A stretch of DNA of 64,000 nucleotides from Bacteroidales bacterium (GTDB lineage: Bacteria > Bacteroidota > Bacteroidia > Bacteroidales > UBA7960): the NCBI GenBank assembly GCA_007118495.1, contig SKRM01000026.1, forward strand, positions 1 to 64,000, read 5' to 3'. Within the stretch, counting starts at the first letter, position 1. Every line of letters starts with the position of its first letter. The position numbers and the translations under genes were made by a program. Positions 26,092 through 42,530 of this stretch are shown here, piece after piece. The notes beneath the pieces are model-generated. The model made no database searches and had not been told where the DNA came from. It saw only the letters and a program-made list of their open reading frames with translations.

Positions 26092-27276
26092 TCAGATGTA
26101 GCGAAGACTGACTTCTTTTAGAAGTTTGTTTTCAAGTACACGGGCTATCCTTTTGATAACGGTGCGGCGTATTTCAAGTTCAACCGGAAGGTTAGGGTCT
26201 TGATGGGCCACGTTAATGGCTGTCCCAACCAAAAAATTGATTTCATCACTCTCAATAAACTGTTTGATGATCAGGTCAGCAGGGCCTTTCCCCAGTTCTG
26301 ACCTGGGGCCATATTTATCAAGCAGTTCGGCCGTTTTGCTTAAGGTAAGTATTCCTTCTGTAACCAGATCAATCCCCTCCATATATGACAGGGGTGGCAA
26401 GTCAGGATCTTCAAATTCTAATGTATCGGTTATTTTAATTCCCAGTTCTCTTGCAACTATGTCTGCCGTGGTTCCCCCGCAAAGAATTTTCCTGCCATTA
26501 AAACCTTTCACAATTCCTGCCAGTTCTTTGTCTTTTTCTTTGTCAAAAGGAGGACCGGAGCTTAATAAAAGTCTTCTTGGTTCTCTGAAGTAAACCACAG
26601 CAACACTGGTATCGTCTTTTGCCTGGTAACCATCATTGGCGTGGGCTTTATTCACCAGATGGGCCGACATGCGTGAAGCGGAGATATCAGGTTGATCCCT
26701 GACTACTGCAGCAAGGGTTTCCAATACGTTTTCCATGCCCCAACCCAACAGATATTTTCCCTTGCCAAGCCCCGACTGGGTGATTCCGTCGGTCATCAGC
26801 ACAATCCGGTCTTCTTTTTGGGCCATAAAGGTACAGGCATGAATTTCTTTGTGGCCTCCTTCGGCGGCTTCCATGGTAATGGTGTGCCAGTCAGGATTAA
26901 GTTGATCATGACTTCGCATGATAACCGGCTCAGGATTGTCATAGTTGATAATGGTGGTTTGCCCGTCTTTTTCTACATCAACAACGGTAAAGGTGGCGTA
27001 GCTTATTTTTCGTTCACTGCATACAGGCAGTGTGTTCATAATAATCTCTGCGATTTTGTGTGCATCGCGGTGTTCTTTGGTAAAATTCAGCGCCATGGTG
27101 GCGGTTAGTGTGGCCAGCAAGTTGGCCTTTACCCCATGTCCCATCCCGTCTGAAAGCACCACAACAGTCCGGCTCTCTTCCTTTACCTTTTCTGAAAGGA
27201 ACATATCTCCGCAAATCCTTTCACCCATATGGTTGCGCTGTGATGAGCCTACTTCAATATAGAATGCTTCATTCAT
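26092..27276 (-). CDS. SpoIIE/PP2C-type serine phosphatase with C-terminal extension, hydrogenase-locus associated
   Basis: VVVLSDGMGHGVKANLLATLTA; IVLMTDGITQSG; AKDDTSVAVVYF; ~160 aa extension. Confidence 0.88.
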   Translation of the reverse strand: MNEAFYIEVGSSQRNHMGERICGDMFLSEKVKEESRTVVVLSDGMGHGVKANLLATLTATMALNFTKEHRDAHKIAEIIMNTLPVCSERKISYATFTVVDVEKDGQTTIINYDNPEPVIMRSHDQLNPDWHTITMEAAEGGHKEIHACTFMAQKEDRIVLMTDGITQSGLGKGKYLLGWGMENVLETLAAVVRDQPDISASRMSAHLVNKAHANDGYQAKDDTSVAVVYFREPRRLLLSSGPPFDKEKDKELAGIVKGFNGRKILCGGTTADIVARELGIKITDTLEFEDPDLPPLSYMEGIDLVTEGILTLSKTAELLDKYGPRSELGKGPADLIIKQFIESDEINFLVGTAINVAHQDPNLPVELEIRRTVIKRIARVLENKLLKEVSLRYI

Positions 27277-27314: not shown

Positions 27315-29165
27315 TTACTTGCTTGTCTTTTTATAGGTTTCGATAATAGAATTGAGCATTTTTTCAGTGGTGCTGGCACCTTCACCAAGTGAAAAGGCTA
27401 TCTTTTGTACCATTTTGAGGTTTTCATCAATGACCTCACTTACACGGTTTATGATTTCTTCTTGTCTTACTTCAGCCACATACATATCACGGATAACCCC
27501 ACCGGCAATTTTGTTGGGTTTAAGTGAATAAATACTCACATTCAGTAAGCGGTCATTGTGCTGCACATCTTTTCCGATGATGTTTTCATCATTTTCAAGC
27601 ACATAAGAAAACAGATGGGATATGTTATAGGGCAGCAGTGTCTTCAGATCAGCTCCGGCCAGACCGGGTATGACCTCATTGATCATTTCGGCATCTTCGC
27701 CCAACACCTTTATAAAGCTTTGGTTTGATTCAATAATCTTGAGCTTTTCGTCAACAATAACAGCGGCCGATGGCAGGTTTTGCAGCAGGGCTGAAGTTGT
27801 TTCTGACCTTTGGCTTATTTTCTGGTTCTCATCTCTGAGTATTTTTTCCTTGTCAAGTAACTCTTCCTGGTTGGCCTTGAGTTTTTCGTTATTGGTTTTA
27901 AGGGTCCGGATGTAGTCTTGTTTACTCTTGAGCGAATAATTCAGGCACATTTCTGGCTTGCTGAGACCCTGGCTTATTGAAATGGCAAAATCACGGCAAC
28001 TTCTGTGTCCGCATGCGGTGCATGAAGCGGTCTCATTAACGCTTTTGCCAAGGCTTTTGAGTATTTCTTCTATTCTGTCGTTCTCAGGTTCCGGAAGGCG
28101 TTGGTCGTCTTTGACAAAACTTCGCTTTAGTTCAAGGCTTGAATATGTTTCCATTTCACTTTCCCACAGGTCTTTGTCAAAATCTTTGAGTCTTTTGTGG
28201 GCATAGTCAACCACCATGGTTCGGCGCAGGTATTTATTTGATTTGTCGGTAGTTCCCGGCCCCATGATACAACCCGAATGGTAAAAGACGTTGAAGTGCT
28301 TTTTGAGTAATTCAGTGTGTCTGCTGAATTCATCTACTATATCCAGAAAATTGATTTTGTCTTCAACAGTAATCACTTTGCCTTCAAGCAGTGAGCCATC
28401 TACACCGGCAGCTGTAAGAATGCCTTTGCTGATGGGGTATAGTGAGCCCAAAAATCCGATGGGGGGATCAAAGTCAGAATACTCAACTTTTGATTCCTTA
28501 ATGTTGAATCGGTTGAAAAGTGTCCTGAGTTCGCGGAAAGTGAGAACTGCATCAACCTTTGCATTGCCCTTAAACAATTTGGCGTCATGTTTTGCTGAAA
28601 GACATGGTCCGATGAAAACAACTTTAAGGTCGTTGCCAAAAGCTTTTCTGACTACCATGGCCGAAGCTGTCATGGGTGTGACAATGGGAGAGAGGTTTTC
28701 TGTAAGCTCGGGATAAAATTTTTCAACAAATGAAACCAGGCTGGGGCAGTTTGACATGAGGTAATACTTGCCCTTGAAATTCGACAAAAGTTCGTTGTAT
28801 TTACGGGCAACCAGGTCAACACCAAAAGAAACCTCATTCACATATTCGAAACCCAGTGTCCGGATCATTTCAACGAACTTCCGGTAATCGGTTATGTCCG
28901 GAAACTCTCCACTGATGGTGGGATCAACAATGGCTGCAACCTTTTTATCTGATTCAAGCAACCCAATGGTTGTATCAAGGTCGCTGAAGTGAGAAACTGC
29001 ATCTGATGAGCATACTGAAAGACAACTTCCACAGCCAACACACCTTTCATGATTGACAACCGGATAACCGTCTTTGCCATGGGCACTGATTGCCTTGACC
29101 GGGCATGATCTGATGCATGCATAAGACCTGTTGCAGCGTTTATGGTCAATGTCAATGATTCGCAT
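27315..29165 (-). CDS. HydS-like [FeFe]-hydrogenase-domain sensor with N-terminal ferredoxin domain, Cys-cluster domain and PAS domain
   Basis: CNRSYACIRSCP / CVGCGSCLSVC; SNCPSLVSF, GPCLSAKHDA, YHSGCIMGPG (degenerate H-cluster motifs); CTACGHRSCRDFA...C; PAS-like LLQNLPSAAVIVDEKLKIIESNQSF. Confidence 0.87.
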   Translation of the reverse strand: MRIIDIDHKRCNRSYACIRSCPVKAISAHGKDGYPVVNHERCVGCGSCLSVCSSDAVSHFSDLDTTIGLLESDKKVAAIVDPTISGEFPDITDYRKFVEMIRTLGFEYVNEVSFGVDLVARKYNELLSNFKGKYYLMSNCPSLVSFVEKFYPELTENLSPIVTPMTASAMVVRKAFGNDLKVVFIGPCLSAKHDAKLFKGNAKVDAVLTFRELRTLFNRFNIKESKVEYSDFDPPIGFLGSLYPISKGILTAAGVDGSLLEGKVITVEDKINFLDIVDEFSRHTELLKKHFNVFYHSGCIMGPGTTDKSNKYLRRTMVVDYAHKRLKDFDKDLWESEMETYSSLELKRSFVKDDQRLPEPENDRIEEILKSLGKSVNETASCTACGHRSCRDFAISISQGLSKPEMCLNYSLKSKQDYIRTLKTNNEKLKANQEELLDKEKILRDENQKISQRSETTSALLQNLPSAAVIVDEKLKIIESNQSFIKVLGEDAEMINEVIPGLAGADLKTLLPYNISHLFSYVLENDENIIGKDVQHNDRLLNVSIYSLKPNKIAGGVIRDMYVAEVRQEEIINRVSEVIDENLKMVQKIAFSLGEGASTTEKMLNSIIETYKKTSK

Positions 29166-29704: not shown

Positions 29705-30217
29705 TTGCCTTATATTGTGAAACAAATAGCAACACCACCTTATATGGAAAGTGATTTTCAACAAGTGTTCGAGCAATTTCCCAACAAGCGGAGAGAAGAT
29801 TTAATTCCCTTGCTCCAGCATATTCAGGATATTCACGGCTTTCTGTCTGAAGAAATTATAAAAAAAGTGGGCACCTACCTCGACATAAGTGTGAACAAAA
29901 TTTATGGGGTAGCTACCTTTTATGATAACTTCCGCTTTGGACCGGTTGGAAAGTACCATATCAGACTTTGTCACGGTACGGCCTGTCATGTATCAGGTGC
30001 AGGAACTCTGTTAAAGGAGTTGGAAAAGATTCTCCGTATCAAAGATGGAGAAACAGATAAACAAGGTTTATTCAGCCTTGAAGTTGTCAGCTGCATCGGA
30101 GCCTGCGGACTGGCTCCTTTGCTTGAGATAAATGAGCAATATTATACAAACATTACCCTGGAATCATTGAAAGAGCTTCTGGTATCGTTCAGGGAAAAAG
30201 AAAACCTATTGCCATGA
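29705..30217 (+). CDS. hydC: NADH-dependent [FeFe] hydrogenase subunit HydC (NuoE-like, 2Fe-2S)
   Basis: FEQFPNKRREDLIPLLQHIQDIHGFLSEE; LCHGTACHVSGA; SCIGACGLAPL; TTG start in track, ATG at 29744 plausible. Confidence 0.92.
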   Translation: MPYIVKQIATPPYMESDFQQVFEQFPNKRREDLIPLLQHIQDIHGFLSEEIIKKVGTYLDISVNKIYGVATFYDNFRFGPVGKYHIRLCHGTACHVSGAGTLLKELEKILRIKDGETDKQGLFSLEVVSCIGACGLAPLLEINEQYYTNITLESLKELLVSFREKENLLP

Positions 30218-32163
30218 GTTCAGAATCAACCCAAGATGTGAGAAATTTTCTGGTTGACCAGATTCTTCTTGATCCGGGCCGGGATGCAGCGGTAGCCCTG
30301 AAAAAACAACTGTCGTATATTTCAGGCGATCGGGTTCATAAACCAATGATCTATGTTGGTATGGCCACCTGTGGCCGCATTGCCGGTGCAGAAAAGACTT
30401 TCAAGGCAATAAAGGCCTATTTGTCTGACCACCAAATTGATGCCGATTTGGTTGAAGGTGGTTGCAATGGCTTCTGTCAGGCCGAACCCATTGTTGATAT
30501 TCAGCTTCCGGGAAAAGCACGGCTTTCTTTTTCGCACATTACCGATGACCTTGTTCAACCTCTGCTTGATGATGTACTAAATAACATCATACCTGATATG
30601 CCGGCTCTTGGTCAGTACCGAAGTCAACTTCTGCAGCAATGGGAGCAGATGCCATTTATTGATGAGCACCCCTATTTTAAACACCAGCACAAAGTATTGC
30701 TTGAATTATGTGGCGTTATTGACCCGGTTTCGGTATCTGCCTACATTGCAAAGGGCGGATACTGGGCATTTACCGACACTATCTCCAGGTATACACCGGC
30801 CAGGGTATGCGATATCATTGAAAACAGTGGCCTCGCCGGAAGGGGTGGGGGCGGCTATTCAACCGGAAAAAAATGGCGGCTTGCCCTGCAGACTACCAGC
30901 GATCAAAAATATTTTGTTTGTAACGCCGTTGAGAGTGATCCCGGCAGTTACATGAACCGGGCCATTATTGAAAGCAACCCCCACAGGCTGATTGAAGCGC
31001 TATTGATCGCTACCTATGCCATTGGTGCCACCAAGGCGTTTATATTTATTCGAAAAGAGTTTAAACTGGCCATTGAAAGGCTTGAGGCTGCACTTGAACA
31101 GGCAAGGGCCTACGGCATAACTGGTCATCACATACTTGACTCAGGTGTCAATATTGAAGTGGTTGTTAAAAAAGGAGCCAGGGCATTTGTTTGTGGCGAA
31201 GAAACGGCCCTGAACAGCAGTATTGAAGGGAAAAGGGCCATGCCATCATCCAAACCTCCCTATCCATCTGAATCAGGTTTGTGGAGTAAGCCTACCATTG
31301 TAAACAATGTGGAGACCCTCTTTAACGTACCGCTGATAATGCGAAACGGTGCTGAGTGGTTTCAATCATCGGGTACAGATATAAGCAAGGGCACCAAACT
31401 GTTTACCCTGTCGGGCTCTGTAAAGCGCTATGGAACCGTTGAGGTACCCATGGGTACAACTTTCGGAGACATTTTAGACAAGGTGGGGGGTGGTATGTCG
31501 TCAGACAAAGAATTCAAGGCCATCGTACTTGGGATAAACAGCGGTAGCTACATTACCAAGGATATCCTTGATACCCAGGTTGATTTTGATGCCTTGAAAA
31601 ATGTGGGCGCAGCTCTTGGTAGCGGAGCCTTTGTAGTGCTTGACCAGGGGGTTTGCATGGTCGACCTGGCCAGGTTCTTTACCGCGTTTTTTAAGAAGGA
31701 AAGTTGTGGTAAGTGTATCCCATGCAGAGAAGGAACCGCAAGAATGCTTGAAGTGATGGAAAACGCCACCAGCAGGCCTTCTGAAAACCATTCATTTCAG
31801 ACCCTTGAACGTTTCAAGGGAGTTATGCAGTTGAAAGGGCTTGCAGCCGTTATCAAGGATACTTCATTATGTTCGCTGGGCAAGTCATCACCCAATGCCA
31901 TTCTGAACACACTGAAGCATTTTAAGGAGGAGTTTGATACCCACTTGTTTGAAAGAAAATGTGCTGCAAATGTATGTACCGACCTGAGAATTTTTTCCAT
32001 TGACGTTGAGGCCTGCACCGGTTGCACGGCTTGCTTTAAGAAGTGCCCTGTTGATGCCATCATTGGTTCTCCGAGGTATCCCCACTTTATTGTTGAGGAA
32101 AAATGCATAGGTTGCGGAACCTGTTATGATGTTTGTAAATTCAATGCTGTTCTCATAAAATAG
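30214..32163 (+). CDS. hydB: NADH-dependent [FeFe] hydrogenase subunit HydB (NuoF-like, FMN, Fe-S)
   Basis: GLAGRGGGGYSTGKKWRLA; CNAVESDPGSYMNR; ESCGKCIPCREGTARMLE; C-terminal 2x[4Fe-4S]. Confidence 0.95.
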   Translation: MSSESTQDVRNFLVDQILLDPGRDAAVALKKQLSYISGDRVHKPMIYVGMATCGRIAGAEKTFKAIKAYLSDHQIDADLVEGGCNGFCQAEPIVDIQLPGKARLSFSHITDDLVQPLLDDVLNNIIPDMPALGQYRSQLLQQWEQMPFIDEHPYFKHQHKVLLELCGVIDPVSVSAYIAKGGYWAFTDTISRYTPARVCDIIENSGLAGRGGGGYSTGKKWRLALQTTSDQKYFVCNAVESDPGSYMNRAIIESNPHRLIEALLIATYAIGATKAFIFIRKEFKLAIERLEAALEQARAYGITGHHILDSGVNIEVVVKKGARAFVCGEETALNSSIEGKRAMPSSKPPYPSESGLWSKPTIVNNVETLFNVPLIMRNGAEWFQSSGTDISKGTKLFTLSGSVKRYGTVEVPMGTTFGDILDKVGGGMSSDKEFKAIVLGINSGSYITKDILDTQVDFDALKNVGAALGSGAFVVLDQGVCMVDLARFFTAFFKKESCGKCIPCREGTARMLEVMENATSRPSENHSFQTLERFKGVMQLKGLAAVIKDTSLCSLGKSSPNAILNTLKHFKEEFDTHLFERKCAANVCTDLRIFSIDVEACTGCTACFKKCPVDAIIGSPRYPHFIVEEKCIGCGTCYDVCKFNAVLIK

Positions 32164-32180: not shown

Positions 32181-33908
32181 ATGGAAATTCAGATAGATGT
32201 AAATGCGAAGCAAATCAGTGCCGTTGAAGGGGAAACCCTGCTGACGGTTTTGCGAAAGCATGGGTTTAAGATTCCCACCATGTGCCATATGAACAGGTTT
32301 TCACCCACGGGCGCCTGCAGACTTTGTGTGGTTGAGGTGGAAGGTAAAAGAGACCTGATTACCTCGTGCTCATACCCGGTTGAACAGGGAATGAAAGTGC
32401 GGACCAACTCCCAGCGGGTTATGCGTGCAAGAAAATCTTTGGTTGAGTTATTGCTTTCGAACCATCCTGATGATTGTCTGTACTGTGTAAGAAATGGTCA
32501 TTGCGAGCTTCAGTGGCTTGCTGAAGAAATGAATGTCAAAGAGCGAAAGTATTTTGGCGAAAAGAATGCAACATATCCCGACTATTCAAGTACCAGTGTG
32601 GCAAGAGATCCTGCCAAATGTGTTTTATGCAGTCGCTGTGTGCGTATCTGTGAAGAAGTTCAGCTGGTTACTGCCATTGATTTTATATCAAGAGGAAATC
32701 AAACAAAGGTAAATAGTGCTTTTAACCAGGGCCTGAATGTGTCGAGTTGTATCCATTGCGGCCAATGTATTCAGGTGTGCCCTACGGCAGCCCTTACAGA
32801 CATCAGCCATGTAGAAAAGGTGCAGGCGGCGCTGGGGAATCCCAGGCAAAAAGTTGTTTTTCTGATCAATCCCGGAGCATCTGCTTCAATGGCAGTTGAA
32901 CTCAAATGGAAACCCGGTGAAAACCTGGGTGGACGCCTGGCGGCTGCGCTGAGAAGCTGCGGCGCTTTCAGGGTATTTGACATGGGTTATGCCACTGATC
33001 TTCACATTGTAGAAGAAGCCAGAATGCTGGCGACCCATATTCGTGCAGGTAAACCTGGTCCGATGCTTTCAAGTTGCTGTCCGGCCTGGGTCAGGTATGT
33101 AGAAGAGTTCAGGTCAGACCTATTGGATAATCTGGCGCCGGTTAAATCATCGCAACAGTTTTTGGGAACCCTTGTAAAAACCGTCTATGCCCATGAAAAT
33201 AAACTTGATGCAGATACAATTTTTACAGTGGGAGTTACGCCTTGTGTTGCCAACAAGTATGAGGCCTCAAGAGAAGAAAACACACACAGGGGTATCTCTG
33301 AGGTCGATGCTGTGTTGACTGTCAGGGAGCTTTTCCATCTTTTGCGTGCATACGGTTTAGAAATGAAACAAATAGATGAAGAGCTGATGGATGAACCATT
33401 TGCAACATCATCTGCATTTGCATATAAGGTAAATTATACGGGTGGCAAGGCAGAAGCTGTAGCCCGTGAACTATTCAGGATATGGGCTGACAGCGACAAA
33501 GAAACCTTTAAATTCAACCTGCCAAAAAACCAGGCCATAAAAAGAGAAACCAGGGTAAAGATCGGAGAAAGGGAGTTTGGATTTGCATGGGTCAGCAGCA
33601 TAGAAGAAGCAGATTCTTATTTGCGCGAAATTGCTGAAGAAGGCCGTGATGACATACACTACATTGAAGTTATGGCTTGTTTGGGAGGATGTGCAGGTGG
33701 CGGTGGACAGCCCATTAGCCGGGGATTCGAGAAACCTCTGGCACGAAAGCGCATATGCCAGGATGTGGAAAAGGGTCATTCAGCCAAATCGGCCTGGGAA
33801 CATGCTGACATCAGGGCTTATTACAATAAAAATAAAACCGGCCGGCCAGCTGGCCAGGCTGATGAGTGGCTTGAAGCAAGGTTTAGGGAAAGAACAGACC
33901 TGAAGTAG
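32181..33908 (+). CDS. hydA: [FeFe] hydrogenase catalytic subunit HydA (group A, trimeric bifurcating type)
   Basis: N-terminal 2Fe-2S and 4Fe-4S domains; H-cluster motifs SSCCPAWVRY, TPCVANKYEA, EVMACLGGCAGGGGQP. Confidence 0.96.
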   Translation: MEIQIDVNAKQISAVEGETLLTVLRKHGFKIPTMCHMNRFSPTGACRLCVVEVEGKRDLITSCSYPVEQGMKVRTNSQRVMRARKSLVELLLSNHPDDCLYCVRNGHCELQWLAEEMNVKERKYFGEKNATYPDYSSTSVARDPAKCVLCSRCVRICEEVQLVTAIDFISRGNQTKVNSAFNQGLNVSSCIHCGQCIQVCPTAALTDISHVEKVQAALGNPRQKVVFLINPGASASMAVELKWKPGENLGGRLAAALRSCGAFRVFDMGYATDLHIVEEARMLATHIRAGKPGPMLSSCCPAWVRYVEEFRSDLLDNLAPVKSSQQFLGTLVKTVYAHENKLDADTIFTVGVTPCVANKYEASREENTHRGISEVDAVLTVRELFHLLRAYGLEMKQIDEELMDEPFATSSAFAYKVNYTGGKAEAVARELFRIWADSDKETFKFNLPKNQAIKRETRVKIGEREFGFAWVSSIEEADSYLREIAEEGRDDIHYIEVMACLGGCAGGGGQPISRGFEKPLARKRICQDVEKGHSAKSAWEHADIRAYYNKNKTGRPAGQADEWLEARFRERTDLK

Positions 33909-33927: not shown

Positions 33928-36006
33928 TTGAGCCATAAAATAAATTGTTTAATGCAGAAGAAAACGGAATTTATTTATACAGTCAAAGACCGGTGCAGGG
34001 TTTGTTACACCTGCGTAAGGGAGTGTCCTGCCAAAGCCATCAAGATAATGAATGGCCAGGCAGAGATCATCCCGAACCGCTGCATTGCCTGCGGAAACTG
34101 TATCCGTGTCTGCAGTAGGGATGCCAAAATGTTTGCCTTTTCAATAGATAAGGTTAAGAAACTATTCAAGGACGAACAAAAGGTAGCTGCTATTGTAGCT
34201 CCAAGTATTGCCGGCGAATTTACTGATATTGCTGATTATCACAATTTTGTGGGTATGATCAAGGCCCTTGGGTTTGATTATGTCAATGAGGTTGCATTTG
34301 GTGCTGAACTCATCGCCAGCAAATACAAAGAACTGCTTGAATCAAAACCTGACAGGCCGCTGATCTCAACCAGTTGTCCTGCCATAGTCAGTTATGTTGA
34401 AAAGCACCATCCCCAAATTATAGATTCGCTTGTTCCCGTTGTTTCACCAATGATAGCAACGGCCAAGGTGTTGAGAAAAATGCATGGTGATGATCTTCGT
34501 ATTGTTTTTATCGGTCCGTGCATTGCCAAAAAGGTAGAAGCTGCCGAAGAACAGTTCAGTGGTTTGATTGATGAGGTCATATCTTTTGTAGAGCTTCGCA
34601 GAATGTTCAAAGAAAAGGGCCTGAATGAGACCAATGTTGAACCCTGTGAGTTTGACCCCCCGATTGCGGGTAAAGGTTCTATATTCCCCATCAGCGGAGG
34701 CATGCTGCAAACTGTTGACCTTGAAGAGGATTTCATAAAGGGAGATATTGTTGTTGCCGAGGGCCGTCATGATATTATTGAGGTGCTGAGAGAATTTGAG
34801 GAAGGACACCTTGAGGCCAAAATGTTTGACCTGCTGTGTTGCAACGGATGTATCAACGGTCCGGGTATGAGCAGCAAACACCAGTTTTTTCATAAGCGGA
34901 AGAATATTTCAAATTTTGCCAAGAGAAAGTATGACAGTCTGGACAGGGATCAATGGCAAAAAGACCTTGAAAACTACCTGGGTCTCGAGTATGGTCGCAT
35001 TTTTCATGCCGATGATCAGAGGTTTCCCACCTTACCAAGAGATGAAGAGATCAGAGAAGTACTTAAGGCCTTTGGCAAAAAGGAACCTGAAGATGAGCTT
35101 AATTGTGGTGCATGTGGATATGATACCTGCTATGAGCATGCTGTAGCCATACTTCAGGGTCTGGCTGAATCAGAAATGTGTCTGCCCTTTACCATTGACA
35201 AACTACATGAATATATTACCGAGCTTGATGTTTCAAACAAAAAGCTTGCATCTACCCAGGCAGCATTGAAGCAAAGTGAAAAACTGGCCTCGATGGGGCA
35301 GCTTGCTGCAGGTATTGCCCACGAAGTGAATAATCCGCTTGGGGTGGTGATTATGTACAGCCACATCCTTTTAGATGAGATGGATCCAACATCTCCATTA
35401 TACCGTGATCTGAAACTGATAGTTGAACAAGCCGACCGTTGCAAGAAAATCGTGGGAGGGTTGTTGAATTTTGCCCGCAAAAGCAAGGTGATCATAGGTG
35501 AGGTAAATGTTAAGAAAATCATCAACGATGGGCTTAAAACATTTGTTTTGCCTACAAATATTGATTTGCAGATAAGGGTAAATACACGTAACCAAACCCT
35601 CGAATGTGACCATGACCAGATGGTGCAGGTATTCTCCAATTTGTTTAAAAATGCCGTTGATGCCATGCCCGATGGTGGGGTACTGAAAATCCTTGTCGAT
35701 GATGCACGCGAAAAAAACTCCCTGTTGTTTCGTGTTGAAGATACTGGCACTGGCATAAACAAAGAAAATATCGAACGGATGTTCGAACCATTTTTTACCA
35801 CCAAAGAGTCAGGACATGGCACTGGTCTGGGGCTTCCCATCATTTACGGGATCATTAAAATGCACAGGGGAAATATCCGCGTTGAATCAAATGATGACCC
35901 CACAAAGGGCCAAACAGGTACCAGTTTTATTGTTACGGTACCCAGAAAATCTGAAACCAATAAAGATGATAATGACGTTATCTCCGATGATGAGTTCATT
36001 GGGTAA
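33928..36006 (+). CDS. HydS-like [FeFe]-hydrogenase-domain protein fused to a histidine kinase
   Basis: CRVCYTCVRECP/CIACGNCIRVC; STSCPAIVSY, GPCIAKKVEA, CCNGCINGPG; CGACGYDTC...C; HisKA IAHEVNNPLGVV and HATPase FEPFFTTKESGHGTGLGLPI; probable start 33952. Confidence 0.92.
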   Translation: MSHKINCLMQKKTEFIYTVKDRCRVCYTCVRECPAKAIKIMNGQAEIIPNRCIACGNCIRVCSRDAKMFAFSIDKVKKLFKDEQKVAAIVAPSIAGEFTDIADYHNFVGMIKALGFDYVNEVAFGAELIASKYKELLESKPDRPLISTSCPAIVSYVEKHHPQIIDSLVPVVSPMIATAKVLRKMHGDDLRIVFIGPCIAKKVEAAEEQFSGLIDEVISFVELRRMFKEKGLNETNVEPCEFDPPIAGKGSIFPISGGMLQTVDLEEDFIKGDIVVAEGRHDIIEVLREFEEGHLEAKMFDLLCCNGCINGPGMSSKHQFFHKRKNISNFAKRKYDSLDRDQWQKDLENYLGLEYGRIFHADDQRFPTLPRDEEIREVLKAFGKKEPEDELNCGACGYDTCYEHAVAILQGLAESEMCLPFTIDKLHEYITELDVSNKKLASTQAALKQSEKLASMGQLAAGIAHEVNNPLGVVIMYSHILLDEMDPTSPLYRDLKLIVEQADRCKKIVGGLLNFARKSKVIIGEVNVKKIINDGLKTFVLPTNIDLQIRVNTRNQTLECDHDQMVQVFSNLFKNAVDAMPDGGVLKILVDDAREKNSLLFRVEDTGTGINKENIERMFEPFFTTKESGHGTGLGLPIIYGIIKMHRGNIRVESNDDPTKGQTGTSFIVTVPRKSETNKDDNDVISDDEFIG

Positions 36007-36023: not shown

Positions 36024-36422
36024 ATGTTGAAAACAGAAAAGAAAAAAATACTGATAGTTGACGATGACGCAGACTATCTATTTCAGTTGAAAGTAGCAGT
36101 TCAGGATATGGGTTTTGATGTAATAACTGCCGAAACACAAAAAGAAGCTGAAAGCATCTATGAAAAAATGCGTCCTGATCTGGCCATTCTTGATTTGATG
36201 ATGGAAAGCCAGGATACCGGATTTATCCTTTGCCACAAGATCAAGGGCAAATACCCTGATGTCCCCATTATTATTGCCTCTGCTGTAACTGCTGAAACAG
36301 GAATGTTGTTTGATGTAAACACGCTTGAAGACCAGGAGTGGATCAAGGCTGATCTTTTTCTGGATAAGGGGATAAGAATGGACCAGCTTCATAAAGAAAT
36401 CAATAAGCTTTTAAAAATCTGA
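36024..36422 (+). CDS. Stand-alone response regulator receiver
   Basis: KILIVDDDADYLFQ...LAILDLMM...FLDKGI, no output domain. Confidence 0.93.
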   Translation: MLKTEKKKILIVDDDADYLFQLKVAVQDMGFDVITAETQKEAESIYEKMRPDLAILDLMMESQDTGFILCHKIKGKYPDVPIIIASAVTAETGMLFDVNTLEDQEWIKADLFLDKGIRMDQLHKEINKLLKI

Positions 36423-36425
36423 TCG

Positions 36426-37556
36426 ATGGGAAAACTTAAGCTCCTTGTTGTGGATGATGAGCCAGGTATCCGAAGTGGGGTAAGCCGGATACTTGAAAAC
36501 TATACCGTTAGCTATCCCTTTATGGATGAGGATTTTGAATTTGATGTGGTTGTGGCTGAGACCGGCGAGGAGGCACTTGAAATTTTAACGGGCAGCAAAC
36601 TGGATATAGTACTTCTTGACAACAAACTGCCAGGCATTCAGGGCATAGAAGTTCTTGAATTTATCAATGAGCAGAAGATGGATGTAGTTGTGGTAATGAT
36701 AACCTCATATGCCTCACTTGACCTGGCCGTGAAAGCAACACGTCAGGGAGCCTATGATTTTGTTCCAAAACCTTTTACACCAAAAGAGTTGCGTGCGTCA
36801 ATTGAAACCATCACCAAGCAACTTTTTTTAAGACGCATGACCCAAAAACTGAATGTTGAAGGTCGCCAGGTAAGATTTCAGTTTTTGTCCGTATTGTCAC
36901 ATGAATTAAAATCGCCGCTAAATGCCATTGAAGGATATCTGCGGTTGATGCAGGATAAAAAGTACGGAGACTCTTTGCATGAATACATGGAAATGATAGA
37001 CCGTTCGCTCTTCAGGGTTCAGGCCATGCGGAACCTTATTCTTGATATGCTTGACTTTACCAGGATAGAATCAGGTAAAAAAAGCAGAAAACTTGAGCCC
37101 ATTTACCTTTGCGAGGTTGTTCAGCAATGTATTGATGCATTTCAGCCCTTTTCTATTCAGAAAGATGTAGACGTATACCTTAATTGCAGTGAAAAAATAA
37201 GTATTCAGGCCGACCGGCAGGAAATGGAAATCATTATTAATAATTTGATTTCAAATGCCATCAAATACAACAAACAAGGCGGAAGGGTAGATGTTAACCT
37301 AAAGCGAGATGGCAGCAGATTAATCCTGAGCGTTGAGGATACGGGTATTGGTATGAAAAAGGAGGATACAGAAAAGCTGTTTGAAGACTTTGTCCGCATA
37401 AAAAGTGAACACACAAAACATATCAGCGGCAGTGGTCTGGGGTTATCAATTATCAGAAAACTGCTTGATCTTTATGACGCAGATATTAGTGTTGAAAGTG
37501 AACCCGGTGAAGGTAGCTGCTTTACCGTTATGTTTAAATTAACTGAAGATGTCTGA
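36426..37556 (+). CDS. Receiver-histidine kinase hybrid
   Basis: LLVVDDEPGIRSGV; LDIVLLDNKLP; FVPKPF; HisKA SVLSHELKSPLNAIEGYL; HATPase NAIKYNKQGG...GSGLGLSI. Confidence 0.93.
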   Translation: MGKLKLLVVDDEPGIRSGVSRILENYTVSYPFMDEDFEFDVVVAETGEEALEILTGSKLDIVLLDNKLPGIQGIEVLEFINEQKMDVVVVMITSYASLDLAVKATRQGAYDFVPKPFTPKELRASIETITKQLFLRRMTQKLNVEGRQVRFQFLSVLSHELKSPLNAIEGYLRLMQDKKYGDSLHEYMEMIDRSLFRVQAMRNLILDMLDFTRIESGKKSRKLEPIYLCEVVQQCIDAFQPFSIQKDVDVYLNCSEKISIQADRQEMEIIINNLISNAIKYNKQGGRVDVNLKRDGSRLILSVEDTGIGMKKEDTEKLFEDFVRIKSEHTKHISGSGLGLSIIRKLLDLYDADISVESEPGEGSCFTVMFKLTEDV

Positions 37557-37582: not shown

Positions 37583-38215
37583 ATGGCAAAAAAGCAATCT
37601 ATGGAACTGCCCGGAAAAACGGTTGAGAGGCTGAGCCAGTATCGCAGGATACTTTACGACAGTATCAGAGAAGGGAAAAACTACATTTACTCTCATGAGC
37701 TGGCAAAAATGATGAACCTCACATCTGTACAGGTCAGGCGTGATTTGATGTTGATTGGCTATTCAGGGAGCCAAAGCAAGGGTTATGTAATCAAAGATCT
37801 TGTTGCCCTGATCGGAAAAATAATTGACAGTGATCAGGGACAGCATATCATCATTGTCGGAATGGGTAATCTGGGACGTGCAATCACCAGTTATTTTGCA
37901 GGTAAAAGAGATAAATTGGTTATTGTAGCGGCCTTTGACAATGACCTGCAAAAGACTGATCGTATCGTTGCCGGCATCCCATGCTATCATATAAATAAAC
38001 TCAGGGAGGTTGTTGAAGCAGAAAAGGTCAGCATCGCTGTACTCACAGTGGCACCAGAGGCTACCCATGATGTTGCCAAAAAGCTTATGGAGGCGGGCGT
38101 AAAAGGAATTCTCAATTATACCTCAGTTCCCCTGACTGTGCCACCCGATGTCTACCTTGAAGAATATGATATCGTCACTTCGCTTGAAAAACTTGCCTAT
38201 CTCGTTAAATCCTGA
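37583..38215 (+). CDS. rex: Redox-sensing transcriptional repressor Rex
   Basis: Winged helix (QVRRDLMLIGYSGSQSKGY) and Rossmann IIVGMGNLGRAITSYF. Confidence 0.95.
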   Translation: MAKKQSMELPGKTVERLSQYRRILYDSIREGKNYIYSHELAKMMNLTSVQVRRDLMLIGYSGSQSKGYVIKDLVALIGKIIDSDQGQHIIIVGMGNLGRAITSYFAGKRDKLVIVAAFDNDLQKTDRIVAGIPCYHINKLREVVEAEKVSIAVLTVAPEATHDVAKKLMEAGVKGILNYTSVPLTVPPDVYLEEYDIVTSLEKLAYLVKS

Positions 38216-40123: not shown

Positions 40124-41551
40124 ATGATCTACTACCCTGAGAAATATGCCATTGAAGATAAGAGGATGCAAGCTTTTATTGACCCTGACGAAATTTGGGG
40201 CTACCTGAACAGGGTTAAAGCTGATAAAAGCAGGGTAAGAGAAGTAATCAAATCTTCACTTGACAAGAAAAGGCTTTCATTGGAAGAAACCGCTGTATTG
40301 CTTAATACCACTGATCATGAGCTGATTGAAGAGATTAAAGAAGGTGCACGCACTTTGAAAGAAAAGGTCTATGGTGAGCGCATTGTTCTTTTCGCCCCCC
40401 TTTATGTTGGTGACTTGTGTACCAACAACTGCCAATATTGCGGATTCAGAAGCACCAACAAAGGAATCCAAAGGTTAACACTCAGCAGTAATGAATTAAT
40501 TGAAGAGACCACGGCTCTGATTGATCAGGGGCACAAACGCCTTATTCTTGTGTATGGAGAGCATCCAAAGTATTCGGCCGAATTCATTGCCGAGACAGTG
40601 CGGGTTGTATATGGTGTAAAGCATGGTAATGGAGAGATCAGGCGCGTTAACATCAATGCAGCACCATTCGATATTCCCGGATTCAGAATCATTAAAGATG
40701 CAGGGATCGGTACCTTTCAGATTTTTCAGGAAACATATCATGAGCCCACCTACAAAAAGGTGCACCTGGGTGGCTTAAAACGAAATTACGACTGGAGGCT
40801 TACTGCACTTGACCGTGCGCAAGAAGCCGGCATCGACGATGTGGGTATAGGAGCACTTTTCGGACTATATGACTGGCGGTTTGAAGTTATGGCACTGGTT
40901 CGGCATGTAAACCACTTTGAAGCCGTGTACAATGTGGGTCCCCACACAATTTCATTTCCCCGGATACAGAATGCGCTCTCACTTGATATATCGAAAGAAC
41001 ATCTTGTAAAGGATGATGAGTTTGTGAGACTGGTTTCAGTGCTGAGGCTCGCCGTTCCCTATACCGGGATGATTCTTACAGCCAGAGAGCCTGCCGAAAT
41101 CCGTGACCAGATACTCAGGTTTGGGGTATCTCAAATTGATGGTGGAACCAACCTTGAGCTTGGAGGATATTCAAAAGGCAAGCAAGAAGTGCAAGATCTG
41201 AGCAGGGAACAGTTTCAGATAAACGACAACAGATCGCTTTCAGATATCATGGACGAATTGATAAAAACAGGTTATATTCCTTCATTTTGTACTGCCTGCT
41301 ACCGTCTGGGACGAACAGGAGAGCATTTTATGGAATTTTCGGTACCGGGCTTTATTAAAAGGTATTGTTCGCCCAATGCACTCCTGACTTTGGCTGAATA
41401 CCTTGAAGATTACGGACGTGATGACACCAAAGAGGCTGGCTATAAACTTATTGATGAGAAGGTGAAGGAGTTGTCCAAACACCAGAAGGTTGACAAACTT
41501 AAAGAAAAGCTGGGAGAGGTTAAACAAGGGAAAAGAGATCTTTACTTCTAA
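40124..41551 (+). CDS. hydG: [FeFe] hydrogenase H-cluster radical SAM maturase HydG
   Basis: LFAPLYVGDLCTNNCQYCGFRSTNKGIQR (CxxxCxxC with HydG context); C-terminal FCTACYRLGRTGEHFMEF cluster motif. Confidence 0.95.
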   Translation: MIYYPEKYAIEDKRMQAFIDPDEIWGYLNRVKADKSRVREVIKSSLDKKRLSLEETAVLLNTTDHELIEEIKEGARTLKEKVYGERIVLFAPLYVGDLCTNNCQYCGFRSTNKGIQRLTLSSNELIEETTALIDQGHKRLILVYGEHPKYSAEFIAETVRVVYGVKHGNGEIRRVNINAAPFDIPGFRIIKDAGIGTFQIFQETYHEPTYKKVHLGGLKRNYDWRLTALDRAQEAGIDDVGIGALFGLYDWRFEVMALVRHVNHFEAVYNVGPHTISFPRIQNALSLDISKEHLVKDDEFVRLVSVLRLAVPYTGMILTAREPAEIRDQILRFGVSQIDGGTNLELGGYSKGKQEVQDLSREQFQINDNRSLSDIMDELIKTGYIPSFCTACYRLGRTGEHFMEFSVPGFIKRYCSPNALLTLAEYLEDYGRDDTKEAGYKLIDEKVKELSKHQKVDKLKEKLGEVKQGKRDLYF

Positions 41552-41563
41552 ATATTTTCAGTT

Positions 41564-41830
41564 ATGCAAAAAACCATGATTCTTGGAATATTGGTATTTG
41601 ATCGCATCAAAGAGGCTGGCCGTACCCAGGAGGTGCTCAGCAAGCATGCAGAAATTATCAGAACACGATTGGGCTTCCATGAATTGTCCGAATCAGTCTG
41701 TAGCAGGGTAGGAACTATTCTGTTGATTTTACAGGGTGAATCTGAAAAATGGGTACAACTTGAAAAAGACCTGGAAGAGATTGGAGGCGTCGAAATCAAA
41801 AAAATGACCTTTGACTATATGTTTAAATAA
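41564..41830 (+). CDS. TM1266-type putative iron-only hydrogenase system regulator (copy 1)
   Basis: 88 aa; ILGILVFDRIKEAGRTQEVLSKHAEIIRTRLGFHEL...GTILLIL; adjacent to hydG. Confidence 0.8.
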   Translation: MQKTMILGILVFDRIKEAGRTQEVLSKHAEIIRTRLGFHELSESVCSRVGTILLILQGESEKWVQLEKDLEEIGGVEIKKMTFDYMFK

Positions 41831-41841
41831 ACCGTTATACC

Positions 41842-42093
41842 ATGTCTGAAATCAGAATATTGGGCGTACTCGTAGAAACCAGGAGCCAGGCTGCGGATAA
41901 GGTACAGGAAGTGCTTACCAAATATGGTTGTAGTGTAAAAACGCGTCTTGGATTACATGTTCAGGAAACGGCAGGTTGTCAGGGCTGTGGACTGATCTTG
42001 CTTGAACTGACCGGAAGCGCTGACGAATGCATTCGTCTCGAAAATGAATTATGGGCGCTTGATGGTGTCAGGGTCCAAAAAATGGTATTTTAA
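41842..42093 (+). CDS. TM1266-type putative iron-only hydrogenase system regulator (copy 2, CxxCG-containing)
   Basis: 83 aa; ILGVLVETRSQAADKVQEVLTKYGCSVKTRLGLH...GCQGCGLILLEL; homologous to preceding ORF. Confidence 0.8.
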   Translation: MSEIRILGVLVETRSQAADKVQEVLTKYGCSVKTRLGLHVQETAGCQGCGLILLELTGSADECIRLENELWALDGVRVQKMVF

Positions 42094-42122: not shown

Positions 42123-42530
42123 ATGGCAAAATTGGTCTACTTTTCTGAAGCTGCTTCCCTGGCATTGCATGCCATGGTGCTTATTGCTAAAACTGATACC
42201 CATATTAACGTAAACACCCTGGCCGCTGAAATGGAAGCTTCAAGAAACCATCTGGCTAAAGTGCTTCAACAACTGGTAAAACACAATTTTCTTAAATCGG
42301 TGAGGGGGCCCAGCGGGGGCTTTATGCTTAGTAAAAAACCTGACCAGATATCCATTTTGGAGATATATGAAGCCATTGAAGGGAAGATTGATGTCCCCGA
42401 ATGTCCGCTTGACAGAAAAATATGCCCATTTGACAAATGTCTGATGAACAATCTTGTCAATGATGTTACCATGCAATTCAAAAATTATTTTGAAGGGCAA
42501 ACCCTTGAAGATTTTGTGACACGCTCATAG
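42123..42530 (+). CDS. Rrf2 family transcriptional regulator
   Basis: LAAEMEASRNHLAKVLQQLVKHNFLKSVRGPSGGFMLSKKP; CPLDRKICPFDKC. Confidence 0.93.
   Translation: MAKLVYFSEAASLALHAMVLIAKTDTHINVNTLAAEMEASRNHLAKVLQQLVKHNFLKSVRGPSGGFMLSKKPDQISILEIYEAIEGKIDVPECPLDRKICPFDKCLMNNLVNDVTMQFKNYFEGQTLEDFVTRS

Follow-up and report, generated by a model that had tools for sequence, protein, structure and literature searches.

Hydrogenases that sense H2 and control a histidine kinase are known from the [NiFe] enzymes of group 2b, in which HoxBC acts on the kinase HoxJ, much as we propose here for an [FeFe]-hydrogenase fused to its kinase; HoxBC and HoxJ differ from the fusion in their metal centre, in being separate polypeptides and in having an evolutionarily unrelated hydrogenase. 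Group 2b is listed in the HydDB paper (2016), which also designates [FeFe]-hydrogenases of group C1 as 'Histidine kinase-linked (putative)' H2 sensors (PMC5037454). A 2024 study of Hydrogenedentota describes BfuT, a group C3 sensor with a histidine kinase domain encoded beside bfuABC; its passages on BfuT place the same arrangement in Caldithrix abyssi, mention that three Bacteroidota carry another bfuT upstream of bfuC and call the meaning of the two copies unclear; Tenuifilum and Williamwhitmania are among the cultured Bacteroidota that it names as having such an operon (PMC11406978). We found no biochemical assay of any fused member in the literature. The present analysis bears on how sensory [FeFe]-hydrogenases relay their signal; none of the characterized HydS proteins offers a kinase activity that could be assayed.

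Domain organization of the fused protein

The window analyzed here is a stretch of 64,000 nt (positions 1 to 64,000 of contig SKRM01000026.1, from the Bacteroidales assembly GCA_007118495.1). A forward-strand open reading frame of 692 aa (33928..36006) had been read, from its letters alone, as an [FeFe]-hydrogenase domain joined to a histidine kinase, and the Pfam order confirms this. In a single chain, all on the forward strand, an N-terminal 2x[4Fe-4S] ferredoxin domain (Fer4_10, residues 17-62, 33976..34113; Cys 23, 26, 29 and 33 plus Cys 52, 55, 58 and 62) is followed by an H-domain (Fe_hyd_lg_C, residues 84-312, 34177..34863; E 7e-51, 173.7 bits) with a fold match to [FeFe]-hydrogenases, a C-terminal FeS domain (PF04060, residues 391-420, 35098..35187; E 4.7e-9), HisKA (residues 456-518, 35293..35481; E 6.5e-13) with the phospho-acceptor His465 in AGIAHEVNNP, and HATPase_c (residues 561-674, 35608..35949; E 1e-24) with N575 in the N-box and the G-box GHGTGLGL. 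The motifs on which that reading had relied (STSCPAIVSY, GPCIAKKVEA, CCNGCINGPG, IAHEVNNP and GHGTGLGLPI) were all found in this frame. The four cysteines of the C-terminal FeS domain (393, 396, 401 and 418) form the motif Cx2Cx4Cx16C, which is the same in TmHydS and TamHydS (PMC8163306). The fused protein (HydS-HK) has these sequence features of a group C HydS: 2x[4Fe-4S], an H-domain with four H-cluster cysteines and Cx2Cx4Cx16C. It also has those of a two-component kinase, with the H-box His, N-box and G-boxes all intact. No PAS domain was called in it by the Pfam scan, and HisKA comes directly after the C-terminal FeS domain. Because most orthologues begin to align only at residue 8-10, the TTG start of the frame is doubtful, and an in-frame ATG at 33952 (Met9, 684 aa) is likelier to be the true start.

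An AlphaFold2 model of the protein has a mean pLDDT of 82.5, and for its N-terminal half the PDB matches are [FeFe]-hydrogenases (E 1e-22). The linker and the beginning of HisKA (residues 440-468) are modeled with low confidence (pLDDT below 50). A helix at residues 419-443, in a stretch of low confidence, joins the C-terminal FeS domain to HisKA.

Distribution and genomic context

The sequence-only reading had called for the taxonomic spread of the fusion to be established. In the window's family 25 genomes were sampled, the source genome among them, and each has the fused orthologue, either whole or cut off by a contig end; two further genomes of the same order have orthologues of 50-53% identity. 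A scan of GTDB species genomes yielded at least 552 confirmed relatives, of which the best 80 were examined; among these the kinase box is present wherever the contig reaches far enough. The best 80 belong to Bacteroidota (51), Planctomycetota (15), Fidelibacterota (3) and Calditrichota (2), with one each in Caldisericota, Latescibacterota, Sumerlaeota, Eiseniibacteriota, Fermentibacterota and Hydrogenedentota and three of unassigned phylum, so that the fusion extends over at least 10 phyla. Of 390 good genomes sampled from the window's phylum, about 1 in 15 had a match in an open frame of about 656-710 aa, a count made on frame length, which is in the range of the fusion. One scan of viral contigs found no relatives of the fused protein, and a viral origin was rejected.

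This spread also bears on whether the frame is a chimera of two genes created by an error of assembly or annotation, as the fragmentation of the source assembly (78 contigs) might allow. The same open frame, however, recurs in dozens of independent assemblies, mostly with no internal stops, and genomes of one or a few contigs also contain frames of this size. A chimera is thus refuted by dozens of independent orthologues, syntenic across the window's family, and we regard its probability as negligible.

The fused gene lies on the forward strand in an operon with the subunits of an NADH-linked [FeFe]-hydrogenase, hydC (29705-30217), hydB (30214-32163) and, directly upstream of it, hydA (32181-33908). 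It is followed on the same strand by a stand-alone receiver of 132 aa that has no output domain (36024..36422), a likely partner of the fused kinase, by a receiver-HisKA-HATPase hybrid (36426..37556), a likely second partner, and by the NAD(H)-responsive repressor Rex (37583..38215). Pfam found no DNA-binding domain in either receiver protein. In the window's family the gene order is hydC-hydB-hydA-[HydS-HK]-receiver-(receiver-kinase)-rex, with TrxFd-[HydS-PAS]-SpoIIE divergent. Among the matches listed, HydA is directly upstream in 69 of the 72 loci with a called fused ORF, a receiver comes next in 57 of the 72, and in 56 the hybrid kinase follows the receiver; many of the exceptions to the receiver/hybrid-kinase order are contig ends or overlapping ORF calls. 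Near-constant adjacency to HydA is what one might expect if the protein served HydABC chiefly as a structural or electron-transfer partner, as an extra subunit with a vestigial kinase half. Against this, His465, the N-box and the G-boxes are strictly conserved and the receivers are kept alongside across phyla, and we consider an extra-subunit role very improbable.

Several further features of these loci were observed. Many relatives have an extra stand-alone receiver (about 145-180 aa) 5′ of hydC (loci L050, L052, L084 and L059), and these lack the divergent HydS-PAS cluster at that place. Few genes of the locus evolve as fast as hydA: the median identity of HydA to the window within the family is 63%, compared with 79% for HydS-HK and 85% for HydG. 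The window's HydA has N, G, S, T and N at the positions of CpI A230, S232, P324, M353 and K358, and 11 of 28 HydAs of the family carry N or E at K358; all four H-cluster cysteines remain. A second HydA of the source genome (locus L009, C14:72386-73294) has the L1 motif TSCSPGW, with Ser at the position of cubane ligand C300, as do 20 HydAs near HydS-HK, mainly in Planctomycetota (the HydA of L051, L056, L061, L108 and others). Downstream of hydG are two small tandem TM1266-like genes (41564-41830 and 41842-42093; putative iron-only hydrogenase system regulator), the first with a sub-threshold Pfam match, and after them an Rrf2 regulator (42123-42530). Other H-domain fusions occur in the same taxonomic order: of L026:1568-5590, L027:292-4077 and L030:2667-4490, two combine an H-domain, FeS domain, PAS repeats and SpoIIE phosphatase, and one carries an MCP chemotaxis signaling domain with the H-domain.

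Conservation of the cofactor site

To assess the cofactor site, we compared 90 non-redundant fused proteins, which were picked by their kinase H-box (the His box being a selection criterion) and from which near-identical rows had been removed, and counted ligand conservation by alignment columns. The putative H-cluster cysteines 150, 198, 305 and 308, the eight ferredoxin cysteines and the four cysteines of the C-terminal cluster are kept in 90/90. The same is true of the residues equivalent to CpI A230-P231-S232, P324, K358 (the Lys holding the di-iron ligand, here K201) and E361. The N-box Asn is present in 86 of the 90, with an alignment gap in the remainder. The equivalents of C299, M353 and M497 are Ser149, Gly196 and Leu303, and replacement at these three positions is the sensory-type pattern of TmHydS and TamHydS (PMC10055695, PMC8163306). 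At the C299 position, Ser occurs in the window's family, and the other fusions have mostly Asp or Thr, or else Ala, Asp being the commonest.

The earlier reading also held that the fusion keeps L3 cysteines that the other HydS of the window lacks. The L3 motif of the fused protein, LLCCNGC, is a CxxC, one residue shorter than the CxxxC of CpI-type enzymes. Of its cysteine pair, the first (C304) varies, with Ala, Ser or Leu in its place in 12 of the 90 homologues, and when the protein is aligned by profile to CpI-type enzymes it is C305 that falls on C499, one residue being deleted; C304 was therefore rejected as the ligand and C305 taken as the conserved one. Since L3 is a residue shorter and Gly and Leu stand in for M353 and M497, H2 chemistry in the fused protein may be slow or altered. 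The related group C protein TmHydS assembles an H-cluster (PMC10055695). The maturase HydG is encoded in the window (40124..41551, forward strand) and HydE and HydF on another contig of the same genome (C14), so that the HydEFG set of the source genome is complete.

A second, divergently encoded HydS

The second HydS of the window (HydS-PAS; 27315..29165, reverse strand) is divergently encoded and, by Pfam and residue alignment, has a degenerate H-cluster site; a SpoIIE-type phosphatase lies downstream of it (26092..27276, reverse strand, by Pfam). Its L3 motif is YHSGC, with His at the ligand position where the fusion has a cysteine, as had been claimed, and the contrast between the two copies proved to be family-wide: in 15/15 copies of HydS-PAS from the window's family, His, Asn or Asp takes the place of the L3 ligand. 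One N-terminal cluster cysteine is likewise Ser or Thr in 15/15, and CpI K358 is replaced in 34/34 copies examined. The L3 Cys is retained in 17 of 19 copies from other Bacteroidota. One homologue (L022:2228-4174, reverse strand) no longer has the H-cluster cysteines of L1 and L2 or either of those of L3, but keeps its ferredoxin and C-terminal cluster domains. Pfam calls a PAS domain in this homologue and not in the window's own copy, for which the designation 'PAS-type' therefore rests on homology. In a quick tree the fused and PAS types cluster apart, with an unsure root given the long outgroup branches, and a single origin of the fusion is for that reason not asserted.

Because the ligand Lys is lost and, within the family, so are the L3 Cys and one ferredoxin Cys, HydS-PAS would respond to a signal other than H2. 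HydA is also losing di-iron pocket residues in the family, and the fused sensor would then be the best-preserved H2 site of the operon. We tentatively suggest a division of labor, which we rate as somewhat short of an even chance, in which H2 is sensed by an H-cluster in the fused kinase only, the PAS/SpoIIE-linked paralogue is a pseudo-hydrogenase sensing a non-H2 signal and HydA is decaying.

The retention of HydS-PAS proteins despite the loss of di-iron pocket residues raises the alternative that the fusion, too, senses redox state in general through its ferredoxin-type clusters, the H-domain holding at most a [4Fe-4S] cluster with no di-iron site and H2 not being the ligand. Replacement of the proton-relay Cys299 (Ser in the window's family; Asp, Thr or Ala elsewhere) and the shortened L3 are consistent with this possibility. 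However, the pocket residues listed above and the four H-cluster cysteines are invariant in the 90 fusions while the PAS copies drift at several of these positions, which argues that selection keeps the di-iron pocket in the fusion. Furthermore, Asp, the commonest residue at C299 in the other fusions, is the sole tolerated substitution there in prototypical enzymes (PMC10055695). Based on these results we think a purely redox-sensing role unlikely.

A proposed model for signal transduction by HydS-HK

We favor as probable a model in which HydS-HK is a soluble sensor histidine kinase with a group C [FeFe]-hydrogenase as its input, responds to H2 and tunes the co-encoded HydABC via the neighboring receivers. 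That H2 or redox state is converted directly into phosphorylation would be the most economical reading of the sequence. What the sequences themselves show is the order of the domains, strictly conserved residues for both cofactor and kinase, and an operon linkage that holds across phyla; on this basis we infer H-cluster occupancy, the H2 response and its sign, the phosphotransfer route and the final output. The HydEFG proteins of the host cell would mature the H-domain, and H2 would bind at its H-cluster, with electrons exchanged with the N-terminal [4Fe-4S] clusters. A redox or conformational change would then travel by way of the Cx2Cx4Cx16C domain and the helix at its C-terminal end to the HisKA dimerization helices and alter kinase or phosphatase activity at His465. 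Phosphate would be passed to the stand-alone receiver, to the receiver of the hybrid kinase, or to both, and the production or activity of HydABC would thereby be tuned to H2.

In the model structure, the helix at 419-443 is a plausible route for a conformational signal into HisKA. In TamHydS (group D), H2 alters secondary structure yet leaves the C-terminal cluster unreduced (PMC13104023), and a conformational signal is therefore favored over an electron relay. Since the fusion combines an autophosphorylation readout with linked receivers, H2-to-phosphate transduction is testable in one purified protein, and as the family spans at least 10 phyla, the result would hold for many anaerobes.

Comparison with known systems

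TmHydS of Thermotoga maritima (group C / M2f) resembles the fused protein in its 2x[4Fe-4S] domain, H-domain with altered C299/M353/M497, C-terminal four-Cys cluster and encoding together with another hydrogenase; it ends in a PAS domain, whereas the fusion ends in a kinase. TamHydS (group D / M2e) similarly shares the 2x[4Fe-4S] domain, H-domain and C-terminal cluster, but has no output domain of its own, and a kinase-like ATPase gene adjoins it (PMC8163306). The C1 hydrogenases of HydDB are likewise predicted H2 sensors acting via histidine kinases (PMC5037454); they differ in that genome papers show them beside separate kinase genes, and BfuT is filed as C3.

The fusion is not as novel as had been implied, being widespread and described before, as HydDB C1 and, in the passages on BfuT, as C3; on the same two sources a categorically new fusion was rejected (PMC5037454, PMC11406978). 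As far as those passages show, three points are additional to the published accounts: how the two sensors contrast residue by residue, the shortening of L3, and the receiver and hybrid kinase conserved as a pair. Orthologues of about 50% identity in the same gene order as the window occur at a Hydrogenedentota locus (L105) and two Calditrichota loci (L108 and L114). Like BfuT of sub-type V, the window protein has an H-domain and histidine kinase in one chain and adjoins a bifurcating HydABC, its gene lying next to hydA of a group A3-type HydABC. The passages describing sub-type V disclose no defining difference from the window protein, and they give Bacteroidota clusters of this sub-type one BfuT on each side, an arrangement of which the window is an instance (PMC11406978).
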